Assembly: GCA_902802945.1 (NCBI GenBank)
Contig: CADCOC010000001.1
Span: 1-64,000, forward strand
Direction: 5' to 3'
From: an uncultured bacterium
Lineage (GTDB): Bacteria; Verrucomicrobiota; Kiritimatiellia; RFP12; UBA1067
DNA: 64,000 nucleotides
Shown: piece by piece, positions 4,486 through 20,783 of the stretch
How the letters are laid out: each line of letters starts with the position of its first letter
Position numbering within the stretch: the stretch's first letter is position 1
Notes under the pieces: generated by a model
The model's database searches: none
What the model was told of the DNA's origin: nothing
What the model saw: only the letters and a program-made list of their open reading frames with translations
Translations under genes and position numbers: made by a program

Positions 4486-4514
4486 AAACCACTATCTGAA
4501 AGAGGGTATACCGC

Positions 4515-5342: not shown

Positions 5343-5839
5343 TGCTTCGGCGCATCGTCCTGTTTTCGGCCGCCGTCGCGAACCTGCTTCTCATCGATCA
5401 GGTCGTGAAGGCGGCCTCGGTTTCGTCCTTGAAGGAGAAGCCGCCCGTCGAGGTGCTTCCGAACCTGTTCAATCTCGCATACGTCGAGAACCGTGGCTGC
5501 GCATGGGGCATGTTCCAGGGACACGTATGGCCGCTGGCGGTATTCGCCGTCATTGCGATGGGCCTCCTGATCTGGAAACGGAAGAGCGTGTTCCCGCGCG
5601 GGGGCTGGGGCGTGTTCTGCGAGATACTGCTCTATGCTGGCATACTCGGCAACCTCGTCGACCGCCTTGCGCGCGGGTACGTGGTGGACATGTTCGACTT
5701 CCACTGGGGCGTCCACCACTTCCCCGTCTTCAACGTGGCGGATTCCTACATCACGGTCGCCGCCGCCTTGCTGCTCGGCTTCGGCTTTTTCCAGAAGGAC
5801 GCGGAAAAGGACGCGGAGAGGGAAAGTGGCGCGGCGTGA
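5342..5839 (+). CDS. lspA: Lipoprotein signal peptidase (signal peptidase II)
   Basis: Inner-membrane aspartyl protease of 165 residues that removes the signal peptide from diacylglyceryl-modified prolipoproteins. The family blocks are all present: an N-terminal membrane helix ending IDQVVK, NRGCAWG, the GNLVDR...VVDMFDFHW block with one catalytic Asp, and FNVADSYIT with the other. Four membrane segments are expected. The ATG overlaps the stop of the dksA-like gene (TGATG), so translation is coupled. Its metabolic partner lgt is 50 kb away, at 55312. Confidence 0.95.
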   Translation: MLRRIVLFSAAVANLLLIDQVVKAASVSSLKEKPPVEVLPNLFNLAYVENRGCAWGMFQGHVWPLAVFAVIAMGLLIWKRKSVFPRGGWGVFCEILLYAGILGNLVDRLARGYVVDMFDFHWGVHHFPVFNVADSYITVAAALLLGFGFFQKDAEKDAERESGAA

Positions 5840-6527
5840 CGCCTATCTGCTCGCCGGCGCGACCGCGAGCGGGAAGTCGGCCGTGGCGGCCGTTCTGGCC
5901 CGCGAGATGGGCGCGGTGATCCTGAACGCGGATTCCATGCTCGTCTACAAGGGCATGGACATCGGGACGGCCAAGCCCACACCCGCCGAGCGCGCTGAGT
6001 TCCGCATGGGCGGCATAGACATCGTCACGCCAGCCGAGGATTTCTCCGCAGGCGCCTGGTTGCGCGCCGCAGCCGCATGGGCCGAGACGATTCCCGTCGA
6101 AACTCCAATCATCATAGTTGGCGGCACGGGCCTCTACTTCTCCGCGCTCCTGCGCGGACTTGACCGTGTCTGGACGAAGCCGCCGCCCGAATACCCCGTG
6201 CTCCAGATCGACCGCGCCGTTGTGCGTGCGCGCATCGCGGTCCGGCTCGACGACATGTTCCTCGCCGGCCTAGAGCGCGAGAAGGCGGAGTTGCATCGGC
6301 TCTATCCGACCTGGTCCCGCACGGCCGCGCTCGCGATCGGCTACCGCGAAGGAGACGACCGCGATAAGATTTACACGCGCACCTGTCAGCTTGCGAAGCG
6401 GCAGGATACTTGGTTCCGCCATCAGGCTACGGCGATCTACATTCCCGTTGGTGCGACGACCGAGGAAACCGCCGACCGAGTCCGCGCCGTCTGGCATGCC
6501 CACGGTCCCTGGCCCGTGAAATTGTAG
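5826..6527 (+). CDS. miaA: tRNA dimethylallyltransferase, short form
   Basis: Transfers a dimethylallyl group to A37 of tRNAs that read UNN codons. Seen: P-loop GATASGKSAVA, ADSMLVYKGMDIGTAKP, GGTGLYFSALLRGL and the tRNA-binding RQDTWFRH near the C-terminus. With a GTG start at 5826 (GGAGAGGG just upstream, overlapping the end of lspA) the protein has 233 residues; typical MiaA has about 300. The missing part is the central insert that normally carries a DP..A..I..ND..R..RALEV pattern, directly after LYFSALLRGL. The remaining blocks are colinear and in frame. An ATG start would remove the P-loop, so GTG is preferred. Confidence 0.85.
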   Translation: MARRDAYLLAGATASGKSAVAAVLAREMGAVILNADSMLVYKGMDIGTAKPTPAERAEFRMGGIDIVTPAEDFSAGAWLRAAAAWAETIPVETPIIIVGGTGLYFSALLRGLDRVWTKPPPEYPVLQIDRAVVRARIAVRLDDMFLAGLEREKAELHRLYPTWSRTAALAIGYREGDDRDKIYTRTCQLAKRQDTWFRHQATAIYIPVGATTEETADRVRAVWHAHGPWPVKL

Positions 6528-6557
6528 GGGGCAAACGGGGGCAAACTGCGGGGATTC

Positions 6558-6620
6558 ATTCGCAGTGATTCGCAGTGATTCGCAGTGGGATTCGTGGGAT
6601 TCGGATTCATTCGCAGTTGC
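6558..6620 (+). repeat. Short direct repeats of ATTCGCAGTG
   Basis: Three perfect 10-bp copies of ATTCGCAGTG run head to tail at 6558-6587. A fourth, near-perfect copy lies at 6609-6618. They sit between miaA and the promoter at 6617-6645 and could be operator-like sites for the downstream cluster, or simply slippage products. Confidence 0.6.
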
Positions 6621-6645
6621 GTTGCTCGTGGCGATTTGGTAAAAT
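6617..6645 (+). promoter_or_regulatory. Promoter of the GTPase gene
   Basis: TTGCGT at 6617-6622, 17-base spacer, TAAAAT at 6640-6645 preceded by TTGG. It directly follows the ATTCGCAGTG repeats. Confidence 0.6.
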
Positions 6646-6686
6646 ACTTCAACTTAAAAATCGGACGTCCAAGATAGGTGTCTCAA

Positions 6687-8150
6687 ATGAAGAAAGTGGC
6701 GATAGTTGGCGTTGAAGGCTCTGGCAAGACGGTGATGCTTGCCGGGTTGGGGGACTTGTACACGTATCCGGACGAGGACGGGTACTTCCTTGCGCCGAAA
6801 AACTTCGAAACAGCGACGTATGTTGCCGAGAAGATCAAGCGCATGCGGAGGGGTGAGTGGCCCTCGGCGACAACCGGCGACGAGATGCGGGGCCTCGACT
6901 GGACTTTGAAACGGCGCGAACTGGGAGCGCGCAAGCCGCCAGAGAACGTCTGCGAAGTCTCGTTCCTCGATTTCGCGGGCGAGGTGTACCGCGCTGCATA
7001 CGGCATTTCCGACGGAGACGACGACTCTCTGACGGAGCAGTCGAAGGAACTGAAGCAGTACGTGTGCGGGGCGGACGAGCTGATTGTGCTCATCAACCTG
7101 CGCGACGTGATCAGCAACGGACTTGGCGACCAGCGCGTACAGGAGGCGATGTGGATTACGAGGTCGATTCTTGACACGGTGCTTGGCAAAAAGGAAGGTA
7201 CGGGGGGGCCGCGTGCGGCGATCGTGCTCTCGCAGGCGGACAGATACGCGGAGACAATCAAGTCGTGCGGCGGCGCGACTGGCGTGTTGCAGAAGTATCT
7301 GCCGCATGTGGCCAACGATTATGGAGGGTGGCTTGATGTTTTTGCGGCAAATGCCATCGACAAGACGGTTCTCGACGATGATGGGAACATGGTGCCAGCT
7401 GCGGATTTCACTACGCAGGGCCTACTGTCGATTCTGAAGTGGATTCGCGGGGAAAAGGTTCTGGACGATGTGGCGATACCCAATGCAGAGGGGGGAAATT
7501 TGCCGCGACAGAGCGAATCCTCGCGTGGACGCAATAAGATTCAACTATGGGTGGAAGGCCCGTACTGGGCAGAGACGAACATCGGAGCCGATGAACCATG
7601 GGAATATGGCTGCTATTTCTGGTGGGGTGACACCGTGGGTTACAAACGTGAGAACAACGTATGGGTGGCGTGCGACGGTTCGTCATGTAATTTCTCCTTC
7701 GGCTCTGGGAACGCTCAAACCTACAATAGGAGCATTGCCTCCATGAAGAGCGGGGGATGGATTACGGACGGCAATGTTCTAGCGCCGGAACATGACGCAG
7801 CTCAAGTGCAATGGGGCGGCGGGTGGCGCATGCCGACGGCTCAGGAGCTTAAGGACCTTTGTGAAAAGTGCGATTGGCGCTGGACACAGATGAACGGCGT
7901 CAACGGATATCTCGTCCGAGGCAGGGGCGAGTACGCGTCCGCCAAAATTTTCCTTCCCGCTACTGGCTACGGCTATGGACCGTCGCTATACGGTGCTGGT
8001 TCGTACGGCTACTACTGGCCGTCTGATCCGTACTCGGACTATCACTATTTCGCGTGGTACTTCTACTTCTCTTCTAGCTACCACCGCACTAGTTACCATA
8101 CCCGCCTTCACGGACAGTCTGTTCGGCCTGTCCAAGGGTTTGGCGAATAG
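6687..8150 (+). CDS. Small-GTPase domain fused to a C-type-lectin-like FISUMP domain
   Basis: Protein of 487 residues. Residues 1-260 are a TRAFAC-type GTPase: P-loop GVEGSGKT at the N-terminus, a DxxG-like FLDFAGE and SQAD in place of the usual NKxD. Residues 280-487 form a Fibrobacter-succinogenes-type major paralogous (FISUMP/DUF1566-like) domain with WGGGWRMPTAQEL and an end in SVRPVQGFGE. The last 60 residues are dominated by Tyr, Ser and His. Such C-lectin-type tails serve as variable regions in diversity-generating retroelements elsewhere, but no reverse transcriptase or template repeat is in this window. The ATG at 6687 follows AGGTG; an in-frame GTG at 6678 is less likely. It is the first gene of a co-directional block reaching to 20416. 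Confidence 0.75.
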   Translation: MKKVAIVGVEGSGKTVMLAGLGDLYTYPDEDGYFLAPKNFETATYVAEKIKRMRRGEWPSATTGDEMRGLDWTLKRRELGARKPPENVCEVSFLDFAGEVYRAAYGISDGDDDSLTEQSKELKQYVCGADELIVLINLRDVISNGLGDQRVQEAMWITRSILDTVLGKKEGTGGPRAAIVLSQADRYAETIKSCGGATGVLQKYLPHVANDYGGWLDVFAANAIDKTVLDDDGNMVPAADFTTQGLLSILKWIRGEKVLDDVAIPNAEGGNLPRQSESSRGRNKIQLWVEGPYWAETNIGADEPWEYGCYFWWGDTVGYKRENNVWVACDGSSCNFSFGSGNAQTYNRSIASMKSGGWITDGNVLAPEHDAAQVQWGGGWRMPTAQELKDLCEKCDWRWTQMNGVNGYLVRGRGEYASAKIFLPATGYGYGPSLYGAGSYGYYWPSDPYSDYHYFAWYFYFSSSYHRTSYHTRLHGQSVRPVQGFGE

Positions 8151-8209
8151 CGAAAGCAGGGCCGAAGCTTTTCAGATGTTTTAGTGACGCACGGCATCTA
8201 AGAATTTGG

Positions 8210-8215
8210 TATAAT
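8210..8215 (+). promoter_or_regulatory. -10 box of the helicase operon
   Basis: TTGGTATAAT, with TATAAT at 8210-8215 and no TTGC-type -35 at the 17-base position. The start codon lies 34 bases downstream. This is a second promoter inside the 6.7-20.4 kb block. Confidence 0.6.
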
Positions 8216-8249
8216 TACCAACCTACACCCCAGAGGGTATGGGTGGAAT

Positions 8250-11200
8250 ATGACAGAAAACGTAGAGATCGAGATTGACGTGACCGGCGAATGTGGCCTT
8301 GTGCTGCAGCAGGCGGGGCGGTCGATCGTGCGCGGCGCGCGCGTGAGGAATGCGGGCGGGGAATCCCTCGTCGGCATGACGCTCACTTTGACGTCCGACA
8401 TCGGTTTGTTTCATCCGCTTATGCTTACGCTTGACGCCGTGCAGCCGGGCGAGACGATTTCCGTACAGGTTCCGGAGGGCGAGCCGAAGCTGGACTACGG
8501 ATTTCTCTCCACGCTGGCAGACGTGCGGCAGGGGGAGGTGCGTGCGTCGCTTGCCGCGCCTGACGGAAAGGAGCGCGCGTTCGCGTCCGTCCGCCACACG
8601 GTGTACGCGCCGGACCAGACGCTCGGCTGCGGGCGGCCGATTTACTATGCGAGCTTCGTCGTGCCGCAGTGCGACGCCGTCGCGCGCCTCCAGACGGACG
8701 TGGCGAAAGAGCTGGAGGCGGCAACCGGGGATGCGGGGATCGTCGGCTACCTGCACGAGAAGAAGGACGTCTACGACCTCTGCAAGGCCGTGTATCGCGC
8801 CGTGCAGAACCTTGGCATCGCGTACGCCGTGCCGCCGGCCACGTTTGGACAGCCCGGGCAGAAGGTTCGCCTGCCGGACGACATCCTGAAGTACAAGACG
8901 GGATGCTGTCTCGATACGACGCTTCTCTTCGCGTCCGTGTTCGAGAAGTGCGGACTGCGGCCCGTGGTCGTGTTGCTGAAGGACCATGCGTTCGTCGGAT
9001 GCCACCTCGTGGACAAGAGCTTCTCCGATCCGGTCGTGACGGACGTGGAGGTCCTGCGCAAGGCGCTGGCGGATGACACGCTGGTCGTGATGGAGACGAC
9101 GATGGTTGGCGGGAATTCGTCGTTCGCGGAGGCGGAGGCGTCCGCCAAGCTGAAACTGATGGAGAAGCCCTCGTTCGAGGGCGCGGTGGACGTGGCGCTC
9201 GCGCGCGGCATGGGCGTGCATCCGCTGCCCGTGGTGTCCGGCGGCGGGTTCGGCGAGGTTGAAGGGCGCGAGGTCAACGCGCGCGACGAGGCGACGCGCG
9301 AGTTGAAGGAGGACGTGAACCTCGACGCGCTCGGCGGGGCGGACAAGGACTCGGCGCAGGCGCGCATCGACGGCTGGGCGCAGCGGCTCCTTGACCTCTC
9401 AAAGGCCAACCGGCTCCTCAACGTGCGCGATAACGCCAAGGTCGTGCCGCTCCTGTGTCCCACGCCCGCGGCGCTCGAGGACGCGATCGCGGCGGACAGC
9501 GGGTTCCGCGTGAAGTCGTACGAGAACTTCCTCGACGCGGAGGCCGGGCGCGCGTTTCGGAAGCTTGCTCCGGCCGTGGCGCTCGAGCAGTACCACGAGA
9601 CGCTGGAGAAGTCGCTGCGCGAATGCGAGCTGTGGAGCGTCCTGCCGAAGAAGGACACCGAGAGGCGTCTCAAGGAGCTGTACCGCGCCGCACGCGTCGA
9701 TCTGGAGGAAAGCGGCGTCAACACGCTGTTCCTTGCGCTCGGAACGATGGAATGGCGCGAGGCGGGCGCCGCGAAGTCGGCGCCGCGCTGCCGTGCGCCG
9801 ATCCTGCTCGTGCCGGTGAAGATCGAGCGGAGGAGCGTGTCGGACGGCTACCGCATCCGCAGACTCGACGAGGAGACGATCATCAACACGACACTCCTTG
9901 AGATGCTTCGCGTGGAATACCGGCTCTCCGTGCCGGGACTCGATCCGCTGCCGACGGCTGATTCCGGTGTGGACGTGGGGAAGGTGTTCGGCATCCTCCG
10001 CGCGGCGGTGCGGGACCTGCCGGGCCTCGCCGTATCTGAAGACTGCATGGTGGGGCAATTCTCCTTCGGCAAGTTCGTGATGTGGAAGGACTTGACGTCC
10101 CGCAGTGAGGCGATCCGCGCCAACCCGCTCGTCGCGCACCTGATTGCACGCAAAGGTGCGTATGACGACGGAGTAGAGTCGTTCCCCGCAGTTGAGGTGG
10201 ACGGGCATCTCGACTATGCGCGGCTGTGCTGTCCGTTGAGCGCGGACTCCACCCAGCTCGCGGCGATCCTCTATTCCGCGCTCGGCAAGACGTTCGTCCT
10301 GCACGGTCCGCCCGGCACCGGCAAGTCGCAGACGATCACCAACATCATAGCGCACAACCTCTCGCTTGGTCGGCGCGTGCTGTTCGTCTCGGAGAAGAAA
10401 GCCGCGCTCGACGTGGTGTACGGGCGTCTGTCGCGACTTGGCCTTGCGCCGTTCTGCCTACAGCTGCACTCCAACAAGGCGGGCAAGGCGGATGTCTACG
10501 CGCAATTCTCGGAGGCCCTCAAGGTCGGTGCCGCCGCGCCTGCCGGCGACTCGGCCGCTACGGTCAGGGAGATTGAGGATGTCCGCCGCCAGCTGGACGG
10601 CTACGTGAAGTCCCTGCATCGCCAGACCGTGAGCGGTTTTACGCCATACGATCTCTTCTCGCGCCTTGTTCGCGGCGAGATTGACGGCGACGGCTCGCTC
10701 GTGAGAGGCAACGCCCGCGAAGTGACAGCTGAAGAGTACGACAAGGCGAAGCGAGCGATTACGGTTGCGGCGGAGATGCGCGAAGGGATTCCGGCCGACG
10801 CCGTAAAGGCGCTTGCGCGCGTGAAGCCTTTCGCCTGGAGTCCCGGTGCGGAAGCGCGCCTTGCGGAGGATGCCGTGCGCATTGCAGGGGAGCTGCGCGA
10901 GGCGAAGGCAGAACTTGAAAAAGTCGGAGGGCCGTCCGAGGACGCCGCCCGTTTCCTGAAGCGCTATTTCAACTTCCTGAAGGAGACGCGGAAGTTCGAG
11001 GAGAACGTCGCCGTTGCATACGATCCTGCTGCTCTCCGCAAGATGCCCGTGCGCGAGCTGCGTCGGCGTCTGGGAGAGATCGACCGCGCGTTCGTCCTCG
11101 TGCGCGTCTTCAAGGAACGTGCGCTCGTGCGCGAGTACGCCGCGGTTGCGAAGGACGGTGCGTTGGACCGCGTGCGCCTCCGCGAGGCGATGAAGCTGGC

Positions 11201-13163
11201 GACGAGTCTCCAGGAGGCGGACGAGGAGCTGGCGAAGTTGGAACCGCGCGCCAAGCAGCTGCTGGGCGAGGGATTCGATCCGAAGACTGCGAATCCCGAC
11301 GAGCGTTTCGAGGCTCGCGCACGGGCGGAACTGCGCCTGGAAAAGGCGTGCGGCGCGGTATCGGAATTGATCGTAGCCGAGCCGTCCGAGCTCGTTCCGG
11401 CGAAGTCGGGCGAGCTCGTGGAGCTGGCTGACGGAATCGCGGCGCACGCGAAGGGCAACCTAAGGCAGGCCTTCATGTACTTCGAGGCACGGCGGGAGAT
11501 TCCGTTCGTGGCGGGCGCGGTGGCGGAGGCGCTGGACGGGGACGACGCGCCGGACGCGGCGGCGTGGTCCGCGCAGTTCGACAAGGCGTTCCAGTCGAAA
11601 CTTCTGGACGAGACGATGGAGAGCGAGCCCGCGTTCGGTTCGTTCAGGGGCGTCGCGCGCGAGGCGCAGATTGCGCGCTTCCGCGAGCTTGACGCGCGTT
11701 GCGCGGAGTTGGCGAGGAGAAGTCTTGTCGCAAAACTCACCGCGGCCATTCCGCGCACTGACGGACACGCGCGGCGCGGCGACACGAGCGAGCTCGGGCT
11801 CCTGATGCACGAGTGCGGGAAGAAGATGCGCCAGAAGCCGGTGCGGCAGATTCTGGCTGAGACGCCCACGCTCATGCCGTCCATAAAGCCGTGCTTCCTG
11901 ATGAGTCCGCTCTCGGTGGCGCAGTACCTGCCCGTGGACGCCGCGTTCGACCTCGTGGTGTTCGACGAGGCGTCGCAGATTCCGACGTGGGACGCCATCG
12001 GCGTCATCGCGCGCGGGAAGCAGTTGATCGTGGTGGGCGACCCCAAGCAGATGCCGCCGACGAGCTTCTTCCAGAAGGGGCCTGACGAAGAGGCGGAGGT
12101 GGAGGACCTCGAGAGCATTCTCGACGAGTGCCTGCACGCGGGGTTGATGTCGTGCTTCCTCGGCTGGCACTACCGCAGCCGACACGAGTCACTCATCGCC
12201 TTTTCCAACCACCGCTACTACGAGGGCGGACTGAACGTGTTCCCGGCGGCGGCGCTCACGGACCGGCTGGGCGTCAGCTTCGTGTACGTGCCGGACGGCG
12301 TGTACGAGGCGAGCGGCAGCCGCACGAACAGGCGCGAGGCGGAGAGGGTGGCAGACATCGTGATGCGGTGGATGGCGGATCCGGAATGCGCGGGGAAGTC
12401 CATCGGCGTGGTCACGTTCAGCGAGGCGCAGCGCGACCTGGTGGAAGACCTCGTGGACGAGCGCCGCGAGGCGGCGCCGGAACTCGAGGCGCGTTTCGCG
12501 GAGCAGGGCGACGAGCCGTTCTTCGTGAAAAACCTCGAGAACGTGCAGGGCGACGAGCGCGACGCGATCGTGTTCTCGGTGGGGTACGCGCCCGACGCGA
12601 ACGGGAAGTTCAACATGGTGTTCGGCCCGCTCAGCAACCAGGGCGGCGAGCGCCGCCTCAACGTGGCCATCACGCGCGCCAAGGAGAAGATCGTGGTCGT
12701 CTCCAGCATCCACGCTCGGCAGATCGACACCGACCGCGTTTCGCGCCAGGGGCCGGCGGACCTCCGGGCCTTCCTCGACTACGCGGAGAAGGGTTATCGT
12801 ATCGCGCTGCCGCAGGCGGACGCTGCGAACGACCGCTTCGCCGAGGAGGTGGCGGCCACGCTGGAGAAGGCCGGGGCCAAGGTGTCGCGGGACGTAGGGT
12901 GCGGCGGAAACCGGGTGGACGTGGCCGTGCGCGCCCCTGGTGACGACGCCAGGTACGTGATGGGCGTGATGTGCGACGGGCGAAGCTACGCCGGTGCGCG
13001 CACTGCGCGCGACCGCGACTGTCTGCGCGATGACGTGCTGGCGTCGCTCGGCTGGAACGTCGTGCACGTGTGGGCCGTGGACTGGGCATACGACCGGGCC
13101 CGTGCGGAGAAGAGGATTTTGGAAGAATTCAAAAAGGCAACAACGAGAAAGGAACAAAAATGA
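8250..13163 (+). CDS. Very large DUF4011-type superfamily 1 helicase-nuclease
   Basis: Protein of 1637 residues with five parts. (1) Residues 1-120 look like an Ig-type beta domain. (2) Around 180-260 is a transglutaminase/peptidase-like segment with TGCCLDTTLL and a His in KDHAFVG. (3) A DUF4011-like region begins near 370 (LLDLSKANRLLN). (4) A UPF1/DNA2-like SF1 helicase (COG1112 type) has GPPGTGKSQT near 686, VFDEASQIP near 1234 and LNVAITRAKEK near 1468. A long coiled insert separates the two ATPase halves. (5) The C-terminal 90 residues resemble the Vsr/DUF559-type endonuclease (GGNRVDVAV, then CDG and YAGARTARDRD). Similar helicases occur in anti-phage systems such as Mokosh; assignment to defence is inference. 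The next gene overlaps its stop codon (ATGA). Confidence 0.8.
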   Translation: MTENVEIEIDVTGECGLVLQQAGRSIVRGARVRNAGGESLVGMTLTLTSDIGLFHPLMLTLDAVQPGETISVQVPEGEPKLDYGFLSTLADVRQGEVRASLAAPDGKERAFASVRHTVYAPDQTLGCGRPIYYASFVVPQCDAVARLQTDVAKELEAATGDAGIVGYLHEKKDVYDLCKAVYRAVQNLGIAYAVPPATFGQPGQKVRLPDDILKYKTGCCLDTTLLFASVFEKCGLRPVVVLLKDHAFVGCHLVDKSFSDPVVTDVEVLRKALADDTLVVMETTMVGGNSSFAEAEASAKLKLMEKPSFEGAVDVALARGMGVHPLPVVSGGGFGEVEGREVNARDEATRELKEDVNLDALGGADKDSAQARIDGWAQRLLDLSKANRLLNVRDNAKVVPLLCPTPAALEDAIAADSGFRVKSYENFLDAEAGRAFRKLAPAVALEQYHETLEKSLRECELWSVLPKKDTERRLKELYRAARVDLEESGVNTLFLALGTMEWREAGAAKSAPRCRAPILLVPVKIERRSVSDGYRIRRLDEETIINTTLLEMLRVEYRLSVPGLDPLPTADSGVDVGKVFGILRAAVRDLPGLAVSEDCMVGQFSFGKFVMWKDLTSRSEAIRANPLVAHLIARKGAYDDGVESFPAVEVDGHLDYARLCCPLSADSTQLAAILYSALGKTFVLHGPPGTGKSQTITNIIAHNLSLGRRVLFVSEKKAALDVVYGRLSRLGLAPFCLQLHSNKAGKADVYAQFSEALKVGAAAPAGDSAATVREIEDVRRQLDGYVKSLHRQTVSGFTPYDLFSRLVRGEIDGDGSLVRGNAREVTAEEYDKAKRAITVAAEMREGIPADAVKALARVKPFAWSPGAEARLAEDAVRIAGELREAKAELEKVGGPSEDAARFLKRYFNFLKETRKFEENVAVAYDPAALRKMPVRELRRRLGEIDRAFVLVRVFKERALVREYAAVAKDGALDRVRLREAMKLATSLQEADEELAKLEPRAKQLLGEGFDPKTANPDERFEARARAELRLEKACGAVSELIVAEPSELVPAKSGELVELADGIAAHAKGNLRQAFMYFEARREIPFVAGAVAEALDGDDAPDAAAWSAQFDKAFQSKLLDETMESEPAFGSFRGVAREAQIARFRELDARCAELARRSLVAKLTAAIPRTDGHARRGDTSELGLLMHECGKKMRQKPVRQILAETPTLMPSIKPCFLMSPLSVAQYLPVDAAFDLVVFDEASQIPTWDAIGVIARGKQLIVVGDPKQMPPTSFFQKGPDEEAEVEDLESILDECLHAGLMSCFLGWHYRSRHESLIAFSNHRYYEGGLNVFPAAALTDRLGVSFVYVPDGVYEASGSRTNRREAERVADIVMRWMADPECAGKSIGVVTFSEAQRDLVEDLVDERREAAPELEARFAEQGDEPFFVKNLENVQGDERDAIVFSVGYAPDANGKFNMVFGPLSNQGGERRLNVAITRAKEKIVVVSSIHARQIDTDRVSRQGPADLRAFLDYAEKGYRIALPQADAANDRFAEEVAATLEKAGAKVSRDVGCGGNRVDVAVRAPGDDARYVMGVMCDGRSYAGARTARDRDCLRDDVLASLGWNVVHVWAVDWAYDRARAEKRILEEFKKATTRKEQK

Positions 13164-13816
13164 CATTAGGCGACATCATAGCAAAAATCCTCGAAATATT
13201 CGGAATCAAACCGGCGCGCGAGCGGAAGCTCAGAGGCGCGATCGACGATACGAGGCGTAAGATCGCCGAAATGGATGAGGACAGAAGTCTCATTTTGCGC
13301 ACAAACGCGAAGATTGCAGAGGTCATCGCCGATCTTAGGCGCAAGCTTCAGGTTGAGACGATACCCCAGAACCAGAAGCTGATCATGGACGAAATGGACG
13401 AGCAGGAGAAGGAACTTGATCGAAAGACCGCGTTGTCCGAGCAGATGACTGAGAACATCTCGACGCAACGCATCATGCTCAGCAGGTACGAGCAGCTTCT
13501 CGAACAGCTCCGCCATGGCGCCGATCCTGTCATGATCGAAATGCTCACTGAAGAGGTTGCCAACATGGAGGAGATGCGCAAGGGAGCGAAAGATGGAGCT
13601 GAGGGGCTTGACGTCAGCGGCAGCAAGTCGAAGTCCCGAAAGGCGTCGGGCGCCGCTGCGGCTAAGCACGCCGCCCGACTGGCGGAGAAGCTCGGCACGG
13701 CGGTCCCCGCCCAGTCCGCGCCTGCGAACCACGCCCCGTCAACGCCTGCCGCTCCGGCGCCAGCGGCCCCTGAGACTGCACCTGATACTCCCGCGCCGAC
13801 GGTTGCCGCGGGCTGA
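13160..13816 (+). CDS. Coiled-coil protein, PspA/ESCRT-III-like (candidate)
   Basis: Protein of 218 residues. It starts with an amphipathic helix (MTLGDIIAKILEIFGIK), then has about 125 residues of long charged helices with heptad character. A low-complexity Ala/Pro-rich tail (about 165-218) follows. An N-terminal membrane-binding helix ahead of a helical hairpin is the plan of PspA/Vipp1 and ESCRT-III proteins. The similarity is architectural, not proven by alignment. It begins inside the stop of the helicase gene and follows AGAAAGGAA, so the two are translationally coupled. The next gene encodes a second protein of the same plan. Confidence 0.55.
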   Translation: MTLGDIIAKILEIFGIKPARERKLRGAIDDTRRKIAEMDEDRSLILRTNAKIAEVIADLRRKLQVETIPQNQKLIMDEMDEQEKELDRKTALSEQMTENISTQRIMLSRYEQLLEQLRHGADPVMIEMLTEEVANMEEMRKGAKDGAEGLDVSGSKSKSRKASGAAAAKHAARLAEKLGTAVPAQSAPANHAPSTPAAPAPAAPETAPDTPAPTVAAG

Positions 13817-13873
13817 CGTGTCAGATTCGGCCTTTGAAAAATTCTAACTAAAGAAGAAGAAAGAGAGAAAGTC

Positions 13874-14494
13874 ATGTCAATAGGAAGCATCTTAACTAAC
13901 ATCGGCAACATCTTCAAGACCACCGAGGAGATTGAGGCCGAGAAGCGCAGACAGAAACGCATGCTCGAGCGCGGCATCGAGAAGTCGATCGAAGCACTAT
14001 CCGAAGGGCAACGCCAGGCAGCAAAGGAACAGGAGAAGTTCTACCAGCAGGGCAAGCAGAAGCTCTCGGTTGGACGCGACGCCGAGGCACGCCAGTTCTT
14101 TCAGTTCTCGCGCATGCAGGCGCGGAGCGCGGAGAACTACACGCGCCAGAGGCTCATGTGGACGAACGCCCTCACGCAGATTAAGGTAGCAACTTCCATG
14201 CAGATGGCGGCCGCGTGCTTCAAGGATCTCGCCGCGCAGTGTGGTCTGAACCCGGACGTGTTCGAGAGCGGGCTTGACTCGATGGCGGACATTGAGAGCA
14301 CGATTGGGGAAATGAACAAGGCGATGGCGAAGAAGTGGGAGAGGGACAGCCTGAAGGCCGGAGAGGTCTCCGACGAGGCTGGCGACACCTCCATCGACGA
14401 GATGATGGAGCAGGCACGTGGCGAGGTCGCCGCAGAGACGGGTGCCGACGCGGCCGGATCCGAGTCGTCCACGCCAGGCCCGTCAGCCGTCTGA
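13874..14494 (+). CDS. ESCRT-III/Snf7-like helical protein (candidate)
   Basis: Protein of 206 residues, the usual size of ESCRT-III subunits. Seen: an amphipathic start ([16 protein letters not shown]), a basic first helix rich in Lys, Arg and Gln (about 20-60), a second long helix with repeated Ala/Gln/Arg (60-110), then a Met-rich helix ([12 protein letters not shown]) and an acidic C-terminal helix ([12 protein letters not shown]). Basic N-terminal half, acidic C-terminal half and a final short helix match the ESCRT-III plan, in which the terminal helix binds the MIT domain of the Vps4 ATPase. The next gene encodes an AAA+ ATPase with a MIT-like N-terminus. I rate the assignment as likely by architecture and context, not established. 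Confidence 0.5.
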
Positions 14495-14504
14495 GGAGAC
14501 GTCC

Positions 14505-15608
14505 ATGGGCGATTTCTACACCGACCGCGTCAAATCCCTGGACGCGCAGATAAGGAAGGCTCAGGCGTCCGGCAACAACGCGCAGGCCGCGGCGTTCTGC
14601 CGCGAGGCGGCGAGGGCCGTGGAGGCAATCGCCGTACGCACGGCGGGGGCAATCCGCGAGGCGTGGAAGAAGAGGGCTTCCGGGTACTTGGCTTCTGCCG
14701 AGCGCTACGAGAACGCTGGCCTCGTTCCGGCCACACCAGGAGGTGTTCAGCAGAAGCCGAAGTCTGGACCTGTTGCCGCATCGTCCGAGCAGCCGCAGAA
14801 AAGTCTGGCTGAACTGATGAAAGAGCTGAACGACCTCGTGGGGCTTCAACCCGTGAAGGCCGAGATCGCGAAGCTCGCGGACTTTCTCAAAATACAGGCC
14901 GCACGGTCGCGTGAGGGGCTCAAGTCCAACGGGCTTTCCCTGCACTGCGTGTTTACTGGCAATCCCGGTACCGGCAAGACGACTGTGGCGCGTCTGGTGG
15001 CGGGCATCTACCGCGAGCTGGGCGTCCTCAAGAAGGGACATCTCGTGGAGACCGACAGGGCTGGGCTCGTGGGGCAGTACGTGGGTCACACCGCGCCAAA
15101 GGTGGACGCGAAGGTGGACGAAGCGCTTGACGGCGTGCTCTTCATCGATGAGGCATACACGCTTTCCTCTGGTGGCGGAAACGATTTCGGGCAGGAGGCC
15201 ATAAACCAGCTCCTGAAGCGCATGGAGGACGATCGCGATCGACTCGCCGTGATTGTGGCTGGCTACACGGGAGAGATGAAGGAATTCCTTGCTTCGAACC
15301 CTGGACTCAACTCGCGCTTCAACCGCTTCATCGATTTTCCAGACTATTCGGCGGAAGAGTTGGCGGCGATATTCGACGGACAGATGCGCAGGAACGAGTA
15401 TGTCTGTTCGCCAGAGACGCGCGACGAGATCGCCCGCCGCATGGCTGCGGCACGCGCCGGGGCGAACGTGAAAGAGTTCGGAAACGCACGTTTCGTACGT
15501 AACGCCTTTGAGCGGACTCTCGAGCGCCAGGCCGTGCGGCTGGCGTCATATGGCAGCACTGACAGAGCCTCTCTCTTGGAGATCCGCACCGAAGACCTTG
15601 CTATCTAA
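14505..15608 (+). CDS. CbxX/CfxQ-type AAA+ ATPase with MIT-like N-terminal helical bundle
   Basis: Protein of 367 residues. Residues 1-72 are predicted to form three short helices ending [13 protein letters not shown], very like the MIT domains that precede the AAA module in Vps4 (three helices, Tyr-Leu-x-Arg/Ser-Ala-Glu near the end). Residues 100-360 are a CbxX/CfxQ-family AAA+ domain: GLQPVKAEI, Walker [10 protein letters not shown], Walker [10 protein letters not shown], sensor 1 VIVAGYT and Arg-finger region NSRF. CbxX proteins otherwise remodel Rubisco, but no Rubisco gene is nearby. Ten bases separate it from the ESCRT-III-like gene, with GAGGAGAC before the ATG. The likely role is to remodel the neighbouring filament proteins. 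Confidence 0.75.
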
Positions 15609-15613
15609 CCCCT

Positions 15614-15641
15614 ACCAACTACCATCCACCAACTACCAACT
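15614..15641 (+). repeat. 28-bp ACCAACTACCA-type repeat, copy 1
   Basis: This 28-bp block lies between the ATPase stop codon and the next start. It recurs with one mismatch inside argS at 61567-61594. It is built of ACCAACT/ACCAxC units. A sibling block of CACGAACCA units lies at 32371-32408 inside the lutB-lutA fusion. Confidence 0.75.
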
Positions 15642-15654
15642 GAAAGGCAAAAAC

Positions 15655-16554
15655 ATGAGATTAGGAGGATTGTTTAACGGTTTCTCGTTTGGCGCCGGCT
15701 TCGAGTTGATGCGCCGTGTAATCGCGCCAGCCATATTGGTGGCCACGCCGCTGATGCTCTGGTGGTGGCTAGGACCAGAGAAACCATCGTGCGATTCGGC
15801 GCGCCAGCTTGCGGCCCGATCAGCAATCGCGCAGGCTACCGAGCGGATACGCGCCGAACGCGGAGACATCCGCCGGGCGGCCGTCCTTCACCTCGCGAAC
15901 GACCCGTCCGATTATGTGACGCTGTCCTTGCGCAGCCATCTGGCGGAGGGCGGGCTTCTCGACCTTGACGGCACGCCGCCTTCCGAGAAGATACGCAACC
16001 TGCTTAACCTTCGCAACGAGGGCCTGTTCGACGTGGAGAAGGCCATTGAATACGGCAAGAGCCACGGACTCGACGCGGTCCTGATTGGCATCCTCGACGA
16101 GTTCGAGACGGTGAAGGGCAAGGCTGTCCTCAGGGGGCAGTTGAAGTTCGTGCGGATTGCGAAGGGCGACGTGGTGGACATCCCGTTCTCCGACAATGCG
16201 TCCGGTGGCGGTTCGGCGGCGGAAATCGCCAAGGTTGTCGCAGGAACTGGGGAGCCGCCATCACTTTCGCTTACGACTCGCATCTTGCTGTTGTCGCTCT
16301 CCATCTTCCTCCTGCCGATACTGGCATTCCCGTTTCTCAAGATGGCTATGGGAAGGAACTCTAACGTCGCGGCCGCCACAGCCCTGATCATACTGCTTGC
16401 CATCGACGGGTTCATCATCAGCGCGGCCCTCGGCACGAGCGGGACGTTCTGCGGCCTCGCAGTGTTCCTAATCGTGTTCGCGGCGGCATTTGGATATGAC
16501 CTCTTCATGCTCTCATACGCACAGCTTCGCCGTCCCCCGTCGCCAGCGAACTAA
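15655..16554 (+). CDS. Membrane protein of the ESCRT-like cluster
   Basis: Protein of 299 residues. One membrane helix lies near the N-terminus (about 22-40). A soluble domain of about 165 residues contains a beta-strand pattern (DAVLIGILDEF, AVLRGQLKFVRIAKGD) reminiscent of CsgG/FlgT-like folds. Three closely spaced membrane helices follow (about 205-290). Its ATG follows AGGCAAAAAC. Position between the ATPase and kinase genes suggests it anchors or senses for the module. I do not recognise a named family. Confidence 0.7.
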   Translation: MRLGGLFNGFSFGAGFELMRRVIAPAILVATPLMLWWWLGPEKPSCDSARQLAARSAIAQATERIRAERGDIRRAAVLHLANDPSDYVTLSLRSHLAEGGLLDLDGTPPSEKIRNLLNLRNEGLFDVEKAIEYGKSHGLDAVLIGILDEFETVKGKAVLRGQLKFVRIAKGDVVDIPFSDNASGGGSAAEIAKVVAGTGEPPSLSLTTRILLLSLSIFLLPILAFPFLKMAMGRNSNVAAATALIILLAIDGFIISAALGTSGTFCGLAVFLIVFAAAFGYDLFMLSYAQLRRPPSPAN

Positions 16555-16572
16555 ATTGAATGGAGTCTGGCG

Positions 16573-17637
16573 ATGACACAGGAAGAATTTTTTGGCGCGA
16601 TCGAACATAACTTGCAACTGCTGGCTGCAAAACGCGCCGAATTGCCGTTGTACAACATTCCGCGGATTGGCATTTTCCTTGGCAAATTCGGGAATCTGAA
16701 GTTGCTGTCTCGAATCAAGGAGTTTAAGTGCATTGCCAAGGGTGGTGATCCGCAGTGCCCTGATAACGTGCGCTGTTACGACCTTCTTTCTTCAAAGGCT
16801 CTCTTCGTCGGCCCGATTCGGTTTCGTGTCTTTGCCTGTTTCGCGGATGCGCCAACGGCGGAGGGATATCGTCTGGCCAAACGCGCAATCCGCAGATGGT
16901 ATCAGCAGAGCGGTTGGGCCAATAACGAATGTGAGATGCCGTACGCAGCCGCCATTGTCGTGGGGGCTGCATCGCCTTGGGAGGATGGACTCACTCCAAA
17001 TGCAGTAGACCCGCCGAGCGCGAACGTCAAAATTGCATTTCGCATGCTTGCGGCTTCCAGCCCACAGCCGGGGAATGGAATGGTGATAGAAAAGGAGGGG
17101 GATGTAGGGGCGTGCATAATCGTTTATCAAGCGCTTGTCCCAGAGACGTTCGACAAGGTGGAGAGACGTGTGCGTGATTGCGTGGAGAACCTTTTCCTGC
17201 CGAACGGCGATGTAATAGGCGGAGGGTATCTTACCGTTCGCAAGGTCATGGACAGGTTGCCGAAGATCCCATACAAGGTGATAGTCAACATTTTCGTCAA
17301 GATGCAGGGAGAGGGAAATTACAGAAAAGACTTGCTGCCGAAGGATGCAGGGCGAGAATTGGATGAACAGCGCGTATACCTTGAGAAGCGTCCGCCATCC
17401 TTTCTAAAGAAATGGCTCTCGCGGCTGGAGCCTGAATGGTATACGCAGAACCGTGTTTCTCGGCTAGTGGGCCTGGGCTCGATCGGGGCGTTGCTTACGG
17501 TGCCCTTGCAGCTTTTTGAACATTTCATTCCAGACTTGATCATGCCGTACAGATTCATGATCTTTCTCGTCGTCAGCAGCTTGCTGGGCGTATGCTTGAT
17601 TCTCTGGCTCTGGTTTTTACTGCGCCGTCGGATCTAA
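16573..17637 (+). CDS. Unrecognised protein with two C-terminal membrane helices
   Basis: Protein of 354 residues. The first 300 are soluble and contain eight or so Cys residues and several Pro-rich turns. The last 55 form two hydrophobic helices (about 297-315 and 325-347) ending in LLRRRI. The coding sequence is less GC-rich than its neighbours, which suggests separate acquisition. It follows the previous gene by 18 bases, with GGAGTCTGGCG before the ATG. No family assigned. Confidence 0.65.
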   Translation: MTQEEFFGAIEHNLQLLAAKRAELPLYNIPRIGIFLGKFGNLKLLSRIKEFKCIAKGGDPQCPDNVRCYDLLSSKALFVGPIRFRVFACFADAPTAEGYRLAKRAIRRWYQQSGWANNECEMPYAAAIVVGAASPWEDGLTPNAVDPPSANVKIAFRMLAASSPQPGNGMVIEKEGDVGACIIVYQALVPETFDKVERRVRDCVENLFLPNGDVIGGGYLTVRKVMDRLPKIPYKVIVNIFVKMQGEGNYRKDLLPKDAGRELDEQRVYLEKRPPSFLKKWLSRLEPEWYTQNRVSRLVGLGSIGALLTVPLQLFEHFIPDLIMPYRFMIFLVVSSLLGVCLILWLWFLLRRRI

Positions 17638-17668
17638 CGTTAATGATCTTCAATTCAGGAGGTGAAAA

Positions 17669-19363
17669 ATGGGATTCTTAAAAAGACTATTTGGTGGCGG
17701 TGCGTCGGCTGAAAAGCCAATCACCGGCGACATGTCGACAACGCTGATCAGGAGGTTGTCCGCAAACAAACATGAACTTGACGGACTGCCTCGCGACAGA
17801 CACGGACATGTGAGAGACGTGTTCTCTTGCGACTATCTCGACTTGACTGGGCTGAGAGACAAGCTGTCGTTCAGCCCATGCCTTGATCCAAAGACTTCTG
17901 TCGAAAGGGGCAAGTCGGTGTATTATCTCTCGCCGAACGTGTTCGTGCTGGAATTCGGCTGTCGAGACAATAAGCGCGTAAAGATGACGGCGACGCTGGA
18001 CAGGACTACGACAAGCGCTCTTCCCGAATGGCTGCACGCCTACGTGACAAAACCGGGGGAGAGTATCACTGCGGAAGCATTGGGGAGGCTACTGGACGGC
18101 AAGTACTCTTCCGAAAGACTTCCAGAATGGCTCATCTCTGAGCAGGGGGGGACGGAGATATCCCCCGATACAAAACCGCCAGAGGGTAAGTCGTTTGCCG
18201 AACTCGAGCCTGGAGACGTCGTTTTCAATTCCTACCGGATAGAACGCGAACTTGGCGGTGGTGGGCAGGGGCGTGTGCTTCTTGCGACAGACACAAACGC
18301 CCCCACGGAGTCCCTTGCGCATGTCGTGTTGAAGGGACTGTACGGCGGTGATGCGGTGGACGGTTCGGCGCTTGATGCCATCATTGGCGAGGCAAACTTC
18401 CTACGGAGCATGCGGCACGATGGAATCGCGGCGTACTACTGGTGCAAGATGCTTCGGGATGTGCCAGTCCTTGCGATCGAATACATCGAAGGTGTTTCGC
18501 TCGCGGATTATCTGGCCCACAAGTCTGGCGGCAAGATCAGCGAGGACGAGACACGGGAACTGTTGCGCCCGATCGCCGCCGCGCTTGACTACGCGCATCG
18601 CAGGAACGTGTTCCACCGTGACATAAAACCGAAGAACATTATCGTCCGGAACTCGCCCGTAAACGGGTTAAAGACATGTCTGATAGACTTCGGAATCGCG
18701 GGGACGAATCAGTCAGGTGCTACTGGGCAGCCAATCGGGACTCCTCGGTATATGTCGCCCGGGCAGAAGCTCGGCAAGCCGGCGTCGGCTGACATGGACG
18801 TGTATTCTCTTGCGGTTACGGCGTATGAATGCCTGACCGGAACGTTGCCGTATCCAGACGGATGGCTTCCCGGCGTGAAAGTGCCGCCGCTTCCATCGGA
18901 TACGCCTTTCGCGCGCTCGGTGATGCGCGGTCTTGCCATGTTGCCGGAAGATCGTCCTGCCACATGTTGCGAACTTATAGATCCAAAAGAAAACGTCGTC
19001 CCATCACCCCCACCCCCACCCACACCTCCTCCACCGCCGCCAGACGACCTTAAGGAACTGGAACGCTCGTTCATGCTCTATCGGCAGCTTCTGGCGCAGA
19101 GTGCTACGCGGATCGAACGGGAGAATAGCGACATGGCGGAGTGGTTCCGCGGTGCCCAGAGCAGACTTCGGGATATGACTTATGACCTAGCGCGTTCCGA
19201 CCGCCTGAAGCTTGAGGAATTCTTCAACGAGATCAGGGCCAAGAGGTGTCGGGTGTCTTCGGACGATTTCTTTCTGGCGACAGACCGTCTCGTCGAAGTG
19301 CGTAACGGCCTTCCCAAAAAAGGCGGTACGGTTTGGCACGCGCTCAAGGAAAGCATCAGTTGA
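17669..19363 (+). CDS. Ser/Thr protein kinase (Hanks type)
   Basis: Protein of 564 residues. Residues 1-185 are of unknown type with a short hydrophobic start (MGFLKRLFGGG). The kinase domain spans about 187-435: Gly-rich loop GGGGQGRV, lysine in VVLKGL, catalytic FHRDIKPKN (about 314) and IDFGIA. The activation-segment APE is replaced by SPG. A Pro-rich linker (PPPPPTPPPPPP) leads to a C-terminal helical region of about 110 residues. All catalytic residues are present, so it should be active. It is presumably the signalling arm of the surrounding cluster; substrates could be the coiled-coil proteins or the helicase, which is inference. AGGAGGTG precedes the ATG. Confidence 0.9.
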   Translation: MGFLKRLFGGGASAEKPITGDMSTTLIRRLSANKHELDGLPRDRHGHVRDVFSCDYLDLTGLRDKLSFSPCLDPKTSVERGKSVYYLSPNVFVLEFGCRDNKRVKMTATLDRTTTSALPEWLHAYVTKPGESITAEALGRLLDGKYSSERLPEWLISEQGGTEISPDTKPPEGKSFAELEPGDVVFNSYRIERELGGGGQGRVLLATDTNAPTESLAHVVLKGLYGGDAVDGSALDAIIGEANFLRSMRHDGIAAYYWCKMLRDVPVLAIEYIEGVSLADYLAHKSGGKISEDETRELLRPIAAALDYAHRRNVFHRDIKPKNIIVRNSPVNGLKTCLIDFGIAGTNQSGATGQPIGTPRYMSPGQKLGKPASADMDVYSLAVTAYECLTGTLPYPDGWLPGVKVPPLPSDTPFARSVMRGLAMLPEDRPATCCELIDPKENVVPSPPPPPTPPPPPPDDLKELERSFMLYRQLLAQSATRIERENSDMAEWFRGAQSRLRDMTYDLARSDRLKLEEFFNEIRAKRCRVSSDDFFLATDRLVEVRNGLPKKGGTVWHALKESIS

Positions 19364-19378
19364 GTTGGGAGATGCAGC

Positions 19379-20416
19379 ATGAAGATAAATCTGGCAGTAT
19401 ATACGGCCCAAGAGGGCTACTCCTGGCAACCAGGCTCCGCCTTTATGATCGAGGAATTGGTCGCGTTCAAGAAGAGCATCGGGAAATTCCCATCGCCCGA
19501 CTCAGCGGAATTCCCGTTCGGCGGGATTTTCCTGTTGGAAGATCGAGTTGTATTCTACCGTTACCATGTGGCGAAGAAGATCGACTTCCGTGGGCGTGAC
19601 GCGCTCTACTGCGTCCTCGGCGCAGTTTCTCGCGAAGATGCCGCGAAGATCGACCCTGCCGCGCTGTTCGCCTGCCCTGAGTTTGCGGGGCCGATGAAGC
19701 CGTTCCCGACGGAACTGGAGCTTCCGGAGGCTGATTCCTCCACCGTGCCAGAGTGGCTGAAGAACCTTGATAACAATACGCTCGACGTGCGGATTACGGG
19801 AACTGCCGATAATCCATCTTATGCGGTAATTCAGGAGCCAATTGAAATTCCGCAGACCCCTGTCTCGGAGACTACTGTCCCAGTTCCTCCTGAAATACCC
19901 CCCGCCGATCCCGGTTCTGCTGAGCCTGTACCCGCTCCCGATGGTGGGGCGCAATCACCGAGCGCGCCGCAATGCGGTGTGCCTGATTCGCAAAATTCTG
20001 TCCCTGACGATAGTGGTGCGCGTCCCGTGCGTCAGTTGCCGCGTCGGTTGGTCTGGCAGATCGCCTCAGCGGCGGCAATGGCTGTCCTGCTAATAGGTGG
20101 GAGTATCTGGTTTGCGGTTGGAACAAAGCAAGGAGGTAACGGGGATGCCGAGTCAGGATTACCACAGACCAACGGAGTTGTGGTGACGGGTGCTCCTGAA
20201 GGTACGATACCAGCGGATACGAACAATCTGCCGGAGGTCTCGACATCCACAAATGACAATCATCCCGTGACGAATGTAGTCGACGTGTCAACGAACACCC
20301 TCCAGACGGCAACGAACGTTTCGGCTGCGGTAACGAACGCCGCTCCAGTCGAAAAGTCAGCCCCCGCGCCGACCACGGAAAAGAGTGCGCAAAAAACTGT
20401 ACAGAAGAAGCGTTAA
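19379..20416 (+). CDS. Single-pass membrane protein, last gene of the ESCRT-like cluster
   Basis: Protein of 345 residues. Residues 1-135 form a cytoplasmic globular domain. A Pro/Glu/Val-rich linker (140-220) and one membrane helix (about 228-247) follow. The C-terminal 95 residues are Thr/Asn-rich low complexity, presumably extracytoplasmic. A degenerate REP-like palindrome lies inside the linker at 19943-19968. It starts 15 bases after the kinase stop with GGGAGATG upstream. It may be a partner or receptor for the kinase; no family recognised. Confidence 0.65.
   Translation: MKINLAVYTAQEGYSWQPGSAFMIEELVAFKKSIGKFPSPDSAEFPFGGIFLLEDRVVFYRYHVAKKIDFRGRDALYCVLGAVSREDAAKIDPAALFACPEFAGPMKPFPTELELPEADSSTVPEWLKNLDNNTLDVRITGTADNPSYAVIQEPIEIPQTPVSETTVPVPPEIPPADPGSAEPVPAPDGGAQSPSAPQCGVPDSQNSVPDDSGARPVRQLPRRLVWQIASAAAMAVLLIGGSIWFAVGTKQGGNGDAESGLPQTNGVVVTGAPEGTIPADTNNLPEVSTSTNDNHPVTNVVDVSTNTLQTATNVSAAVTNAAPVEKSAPAPTTEKSAQKTVQKKR
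19943..19968 (-). repeat. Diverged REP-like palindrome (CTACCA family)
   Basis: Read on the minus strand this is GGCGCGCTCGGTGATTGCGC with a CCCACC tail, a decayed copy of the element at 45919-45946. It lies in the linker-coding part of the membrane protein gene. Confidence 0.5.
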
Positions 20417-20510: not shown

Positions 20511-20586
20511 GCGAGCTTAACTCAGTTGGTAGAGTGCCACCTTGCCAAGGTGGTTGTCGAGGGTTCGAGTCCCTTAGCTCGCTCCA
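20511..20586 (+). tRNA. tRNA-Gly (GCC)
   Basis: Cloverleaf with a 7-bp acceptor (GCGAGCT/AGCTCGC), D-loop CAGTTGGTAGAG, anticodon loop CTTGCCA (anticodon GCC), GGTTCGAGTCC T-arm and genome-encoded CCA. Confidence 0.95.
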
Positions 20587-20612
20587 TTCATGGGGTTGTG
20601 GAAGCGGTGAAT

Positions 20613-20688
20613 GGGAGCATAGCTCAGTTGGTAGAGCAAGTGACTCTTAATCACTGGGTCGTGGGTTCGAATCCCTCTGCTCCTACCA
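20613..20688 (+). tRNA. tRNA-Lys (CTT)
   Basis: Acceptor GGGAGCA pairs with TGCTCCT (one G-T pair at the end). The anticodon loop CTCTTAA gives anticodon CTT. T-arm GGGTTCGAATCC and encoded CCA are present. Confidence 0.95.
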
Positions 20689-20707
20689 TTCACAACTAAC
20701 TGGTCGT

Positions 20708-20783
<76 letters not shown>

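Follow-up and report, generated by a model that had tools for sequence, protein, structure and literature searches.

We report that three adjacent genes, A, B and C, lie in a 64,000-nucleotide stretch of DNA from an uncultured bacterium of the Verrucomicrobiota (positions 1 to 64,000 of contig CADCOC010000001.1, assembly GCA_902802945.1; hereafter the window), and that B and C likely encode a bacterial machine of the ESCRT-III/MIT-AAA type. B belongs to the Snf7-type ESCRT-III family, whose members cut membranes, and C is an AAA+ ATPase with an N-terminal domain of MIT-like fold that is also found in relatives in front of a different motor. An earlier note, made from the sequence alone, had pointed to neighbouring genes for a 218- and a 206-residue protein and to an AAA+ gene; all three are present on the + strand where it placed them (Table 1). 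The window is part of the 5.8-Mb genome of a gut bacterium; among named relatives, the nearest are ruminant Kiritimatiellae, whose B proteins are 83-95% identical to that of the window.

B belongs to the Snf7-type ESCRT-III family

Relatives of window B were found in 17 of 387 genomes searched across the phylum. Fifteen B proteins, 15-89% identical to window B, were aligned (alignment A1, which omits near-duplicate and later-called B genes, among them L036, L039, L041, L045 and L046), and the resulting profile was compared with all PDB chain sequences. The first four matches were yeast Snf7 (E-values of 2.3e-7 to 1.3e-6) and the fifth was an Asgard ESCRT-III (3.7e-4). Unrelated helical proteins followed at 0.0078 and 0.0092, and Heimdallarchaeota ESCRT-IIIB, at 0.023, lay within this noise. 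Pfam Snf7 matched 13 of the 15 aligned members, with a best E-value of 8.7e-9, and the next family matched only four. When the Pfam Snf7 model was scanned independently over 288 genomes of the phylum, it was found in 11, above the curated cut-off in four; among 14 control genomes Sulfolobus acidocaldarius alone matched, below the cut-off. Up to an E-value of 10, PspA and Vipp1 chains were absent from the PDB matches of the family profile and PspA_IM30 was absent from its Pfam matches. The candidate identification of B as PspA/Vipp1 was ruled out on the lack of any sequence match to PspA_IM30, PspA or Vipp1 up to that limit. Searched as single sequences against Pfam, NCBIfam and PADLOC, A and B were assigned to no family, and comparison of the B family with PHROGs returned nothing notable.

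The AlphaFold2 (AF2) model of B, with a mean predicted local distance difference test (pLDDT) score of 80.8, has helices at residues 4-11, 17-65, 69-105, 109-122, 137-164 and 167-195. A short helix at the N-terminus is followed by a hairpin, with arms of 49 and 37 residues, and by further helices, so that the ESCRT-III hairpin anticipated by the earlier note is present in the prediction. A Foldseek search of the PDB with this model returned members of the ESCRT-III superfamily in all of the top 24 rows (CdvB, CHMP, IST1 or Vipp1), with a best E-value of 0.07.

Two further features that the note had described, the division of charge in B and the amphipathic N-termini of A and B, were recovered, and the letters it had quoted for the latter are exact. 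The net charge of B is +7 over residues 1-105 and -13 over residues 106-206, and a basic first half with an acidic second half was seen in 36 of 36 B homologues counted. Within residues 1-18, the best 11-residue hydrophobic moment is 0.72 in A and 0.68 in B, each slightly above the maximum of 0.65 over 130 internal windows. Toward the C-terminus of B, residues 171-190 carry the pattern (I)PSxE(D/E)(L/M)xxxLExEVA or a variant of it in the 35 aligned B members, and we infer from this conservation that the acidic C-terminal helix is a candidate MIT-interacting motif.

The MIT-like domain of C is shared by two types of motor

The ATPase part of C matched PF00004 (7.9e-19), AAA_lid_6 (1.3e-12) and, with 297 bits over residues 105-365, TIGR02881, whose equivalog cut-off of 423 was not reached. 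These matches agree with the CbxX/CfxQ type assigned earlier. Because it has AAA_lid_6 and a CbxX/SpoVK core, not a classic AAA with AAA_lid_3 and Vps4_C, C is, judged by its domain make-up, not a Vps4.

The N-terminal domain of C was predicted by AF2 as three helices, with block pLDDT values of 64-87 within the first 71 residues. When this model was compared with known structures by VIA, MIT structures filled 11 of the top 14 rows. The MIT domain of Sulfolobus (archaeal) Vps4, 2w2u, fitted with Z 11.0 and a root-mean-square deviation of 1.6 Å over 72 residues, and 1yxr with Z 10.9 and 1.9 Å over 74; a designed protein and alpha-SNAP both reached 10.6, a caution for helical bundles. Foldseek gave a probability of 1.00 and TMt of 0.81-0.83 for the match to the Sulfolobus MIT domain. 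The three-helix MIT-like bundle that the earlier note had proposed for residues 1-72 is accordingly what the model shows, its best structural matches being MIT domains.

B in other families stands next to a gene for a classic AAA protein of 370-400 residues, with AAA and AAA_lid_3 in 14 of 14. Vps4_C matched weakly in six of eight of these partners, in one above the cut-off, and their PDB match list was filled by two-domain p97/Cdc48 chains. We built a profile from the N-termini of 16 classic AAA partners, with the window's genus excluded, and searched it against 4390 open reading frames. The profile recovered C of the window at an E-value of 1.3e-6 and C of the same genus in L007, L008, L009, L010 and L048 at 2e-6 to 2.4e-5; all its other reports were classic AAA partners of these loci. 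An hhalign comparison gave 95.9% over 72 columns. The MIT-like domain is homologous across the two motor types, classic AAA and CbxX/SpoVK. Of the 30 AAA proteins that carry it, 24 are classic and six are of CbxX type. All six come from the window's genus, and one of them is that of L048, a duplicate contig of L010. Since C and the classic partners of B have homologous N-terminal domains, the CbxX-type motor looks, on sequence, like a later swap behind a retained MIT-like domain in this genus, and independent assembly of the pair, which the earlier note had suggested, is unsupported. The window's own genome also encodes a tandem CbxX-type AAA protein of 701 residues with N-terminal hydrophobic stretches (L097, 10524-12629). 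It shares 51-54% identity with the C core, gave no match to the MIT-like profile and may be a relative of the motor donor.

Linkage of B and the ATPase in Verrucomicrobiota

B was present on 38 contigs, which were counted as 37 Verrucomicrobiota contigs given the duplication of L010 by L048. On 28 of the 37, B has within 3.6 kb, on its own strand, a separate gene for an AAA with the MIT-like domain. Four more (L092-L095) lack the MIT-like domain and instead encode B as the leading part of a fusion with a classic AAA. Presence within the class is patchy (29 of 345 genomes). With the B and MIT-domain queries tried, tblastn gave no match in plasmid and phage sequences that would point to spread by these elements, and no relative was found on a viral contig.

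Two to four B paralogues per locus occur in L034, L035 and L043, as in composite ESCRT-III polymers, and a second, stop-interrupted copy of the B family is located on a 3.5-kb fragment of the window's own genome (L096, 895-1434, contig C271). A more distant Snf7-type gene (L111; Pfam Snf7 at 4.4e-8) adjoins genes for a protein of ~1110 residues with two P-loops and an AAA of 370 residues; the N-termini of both proteins are MIT-like by eye, and the B and MIT-domain profiles did not reach this locus.

Points against the assignment and alternative explanations

Several points weigh against reading B and C as an ESCRT-III/MIT-AAA machine. Taken by itself, window B finds no Snf7 family in Pfam, and a scan with the Pfam Snf7 model picked up neither the genome of the window nor its genus; the membership of window B therefore rests on its relatives in the family alignment. 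No MIT model or chain matches the N-terminal domain of C by sequence. The AF2 alignments contained only five close sequences, and the AAA core of C was modelled at low confidence (mean pLDDT 47.3). The MIT-like AAA is missing from five of the 37 contigs; four of these (L011, L083, L086 and L096) have contig ends or fragments near B, and the remaining one (L088, 2530-3225) is the sole B gene without an MIT-like AAA for which neither explanation is available. The coincidence of strong B matches (E < 1e-20) and strong MIT-domain matches in the same 16 of the 387 phylum-wide genomes, counted with one marginal match each set aside (G134 for B, G258 for the MIT-like domain), is partly by construction. 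The MIT-domain profile came from these loci, so that the only independent evidence is the absence of strong matches from the other 371 genomes. Last, in VIA comparisons, where Z below 13 counts as weak for helical folds, the B model matched CHMP3 (Z 8.6, 3.0 Å over 123), CdvB (8.4, 2.4 Å over 112) and the Snf7 core (7.5, 0.9 Å over 79), and BAR domains matched these scores with Z 9.4 (at 9.0 Å) and 9.0. Structure alone would thus not decide the identity of B.

One explanation for the BAR scores, for the missing Snf7 match of window B on its own and for the modest best Foldseek E-value is that B is a generic helical or BAR-like protein, with a likeness to ESCRT-III that comes from composition and long helices alone. 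However, the profile matches place Snf7 far above unrelated coiled coils, Snf7 is the sole Pfam family common to most members (13 of 15, versus four for the next), and the leading Foldseek rows are uniformly of the ESCRT-III superfamily. We consider this explanation very improbable.

The CbxX/SpoVK type of the C core raises a second possibility, that B and C form a chaperone pair resembling CbbX/SpoVK, in which the AAA+ protein would remodel B as an oligomeric helical scaffold on a cytoplasmic nucleic-acid or enzyme complex and not on a membrane. A helicase-nuclease and a kinase in the same operon would fit such a pair. The partners in other families, however, are classic AAA proteins with AAA_lid_3, and what is shared is the MIT-like domain; moreover, SPFH and transmembrane proteins recur nearby, and B has an amphipathic N-terminus and the charge pattern of ESCRT-III. 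We judge a chaperone pair to be unlikely and favour the ESCRT-III/MIT-AAA machine.

Protein A

The earlier note had raised an ESCRT-III identity for the coiled-coil proteins as a possibility. This holds for B as a member of the Snf7 family, and for A it is only suggested. A has a net charge of -2 over residues 1-115, and the basic/acidic pattern of B is absent. The nine-member A family (A2) matched only generic coiled coils in the PDB, the best at 0.0062, and obtained no Pfam or PDB family support for ESCRT-III. In hhalign comparisons with B, this nine-member alignment reached 10% and a set of 13 shorter A proteins 30.4%; with 30 A members against 35 B members the value was 85.6% (69% in the opposite direction), and reversed and heptad-block-shuffled controls gave at most 4.9%. 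A is probably a partner of B, and the larger alignments are suggestive of a possible divergent ESCRT-III paralogue.

Gene run and neighbouring genes

Eight genes on the same strand span 8250-20416, namely those for the helicase, A, B, C, D, the 354-residue protein, the kinase and the 345-residue protein (Table 1). The helicase gene and A overlap by 4 nucleotides, and the later gaps are 57, 10, 46, 18, 31 and 15 nucleotides. The gene for the 490-residue protein is a ninth, 99 nucleotides upstream of this run; in L007 and L008, its homologues follow the same cassette at the opposite end. Directly behind the operon, at 20511-20783, are genes for tRNA-Gly, tRNA-Lys and tRNA-Phe, a frequent site for inserted cassettes.

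Table 1. Coordinates of the genes and protein segments discussed (window positions, except for the last row, which refers to locus L111)
Feature	Position	Strand	Description
490-residue protein	6678-8150	+	weak DO-GTPase N-terminus, FISUMP/Lcl_C C-terminus
DUF4011 helicase	8250-13163	+	C-terminal endonuclease domain; NF058533, PDC-S37, PF13195, PF18741
Gene A	13160-13816	+	218 residues; helical hairpin/coiled-coil partner
Gene B	13874-14494	+	206 residues; Snf7-type ESCRT-III-like protein
B residues 1-14	13874-13915	+	N-terminal amphipathic helix, putative membrane anchor; AF2 helix 4-11 of low confidence
B residues 171-190	14384-14443	+	conserved acidic C-terminal helix, candidate MIT-interacting motif
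Gene C	14505-15608	+	AAA+ ATPase, 367 residues counted from the ATG at 14505
C residues 1-72	14505-14720	+	MIT-like three-helix domain; AF2 helices 2-21, 25-43, 49-71
C residues 105-365	14817-15599	+	CbxX/SpoVK-type AAA+ core and lid; TIGR02881 match
Gene D	15655-16554	+	conserved membrane protein; soluble domain possibly of LpoB/CsgG kind
354-residue protein	16573-17637	+	C-terminal hydrophobic stretches; without Pfam family
Ser/Thr protein kinase	17669-19363	+	564 residues; PF00069 1.2e-33
345-residue protein	19379-20416	+	single hydrophobic stretch; closes the gene run
L111 genes	8105-8818, 4744-8247, 3635-4747	-	more distant Snf7-type gene, ~1110-residue protein, 370-residue AAA

The helicase scored 1558.8 bits with NF058533 (anti-phage protein ProA), for which the cut-off is 1500; searches of the open PMC literature yielded neither a description of anti-phage ProA nor the origin of its name. 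Among the loci first compared, a ProA-type gene stood beside B in the window's genus only. The D profile matched 20 proteins in 40 searched sequences, one duplicate contig included, and LpoB was seen in one D-like relative.

Neighbour families were obtained by all-against-all grouping over 36 loci and were named from one representative each. A kinase-containing cluster, which also takes in the family of the 490-residue protein, was present in 25 of the 36 loci, FHA proteins with a zinc ribbon in 17, SPFH/Band_7 proteins in 14, D-like LpoB/CsgG-type proteins in 13 and caspase-like proteins in eight. One of the caspase-like (Peptidase_C14) proteins is a membrane protein near B in L087 (11822-14329), with relatives in eight loci. 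In L085, a 1548-residue protein that joins a Ser/Thr kinase to an SF1 helicase (11963-16609) is encoded close to a B/MIT-AAA pair. PMC10936438 describes SPFH proteins next to PspA as well as next to one type of archaeal ESCRT.

The genome of the window encodes FtsZ and gave no match to PspA_IM30. A division role is therefore not needed, and B may be the main ESCRT-III-type protein of this genome. That the module replaces FtsZ was rejected, FtsZ being present.

A possible mechanism and role

We infer that the machine would polymerise, contact the membrane, bind its own tail motif and extract subunits in the following way. B, possibly with A, would form an ESCRT-III-like filament at the cytoplasmic face of the inner membrane, to which the N-terminal amphipathic helix of B would anchor it. 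The MIT-like domain of C would hold the acidic C-terminal helix of B, much as the MIT domain grips ESCRT-III in human cells, and a hexamer of C would pull B subunits out with ATP, remodelling or recycling the filament. In the lineage of the window, a CbxX/SpoVK-type core would have taken the place of the classic AAA core, while the MIT-like domain in front of it was kept. The kinase, the anti-phage-type helicase and the membrane proteins in the operon suggest an inner-membrane role for a regulated remodelling machine in envelope or phage stress, and the machine might act there during envelope damage or phage attack, not in cell division. We hold a role in stress or defence at somewhat less than even confidence.

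A variant of this proposal differs in purpose. The module could be a phage-defence effector that acts by abortive infection and not by repair, with the ProA-type helicase and the kinase signalling its polymer to damage or seal off the membrane of the host. The ProA-family helicase is directly upstream and overlaps A, a kinase-helicase fusion and caspase and papain-like proteases are encoded near relatives, and the module is scattered unevenly through the class, all of which would suit such an effector. Against it, the ProA-type neighbour is restricted to a single genus among the loci first compared, and we regard abortive infection as rather doubtful.

More broadly, Verrucomicrobiota may possess complete ESCRT-III/MIT-AAA machines that are tied in with genes for kinases, FHA and SPFH proteins and anti-phage helicases. 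The grip of MIT on the tail would be their conserved part and the motor would be exchangeable (classic Cdc48/Vps4-type, CbxX/SpoVK-type or a direct fusion with the ESCRT-III domain), and they would act as an arm of bacterial immunity that repairs or severs membranes. This is a tentative proposal that we would not put forward as the probable one. With a bacterial Snf7-type protein linked, and in places fused, to an MIT-like AAA+, the view of such machines as confined to archaea and eukaryotes would become testable at the bench, and the exchange of a motor while the coupling domain stayed would amount to a natural experiment. The module bears on whether the coupling of ESCRT-III to MIT is older than the archaeal-eukaryotic line or was transferred from it, and on the use by bacteria of membrane-remodelling polymers in stress or defence.

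Comparison with known systems

Recent reviews confine the pairing of ESCRT-III with an MIT-ATPase to archaea and eukaryotes. An earlier paper (PMC11237479, mSystems 2024) has already reported, in bacteria, genes of the Snf7 clade in the vicinity of AAA+ ATPases as well as Vps4-like AAA proteins, which reduces the novelty of the neighbourhoods described here; the accessible text of that paper also states that snf7 is displaced where the Vps4-like AAA occurs. In contrast to our results, the same accessible text names no Verrucomicrobiota cassette, bacterial MIT-Snf7 pairing, CbxX motor swap or B-AAA fusion. Searches of the open PMC literature, which leaves out bioRxiv and many journals, turned up no account of a Snf7-type gene paired with an MIT-like AAA in bacteria, of the motor swap or of the fusion. 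The MIT link and the motor swap appear to be new.

The module resembles ESCRT-III/Vps4 (Snf7/CHMP with Vps4; CdvB with CdvC) in the basic N-terminal hairpin and acidic C-terminal half of B, in the adjacency of a Snf7-type gene and an AAA+ gene with an N-terminal MIT-like domain, and in that some bacterial relatives carry paralogues of the ESCRT-III gene in tandem. It differs in its bacterial host and in the CbxX/SpoVK core that the window has instead of a classic AAA; in addition, the MIT domain of C is recognised by fold only, tail-MIT binding is putative, and no ESCRT-I/II genes turned up, though none were searched for. With PspA/Vipp1, B shares the superfamily fold in Foldseek, but by sequence its family matched neither up to an E-value of 10, and it is paired with a dedicated MIT-like AAA. 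The AAA+ core and lid of C are like those of the CbbX, SpoVK and EccA ATPases, but C scores below all three equivalog cut-offs and has an MIT-like N-terminus as in the classic partners. Finally, the upstream gene is like the ProA/Hhe DUF4011 anti-phage helicases in passing the NF058533 cut-off and unlike them in that the window's helicase shares one gene run with ESCRT-like genes.

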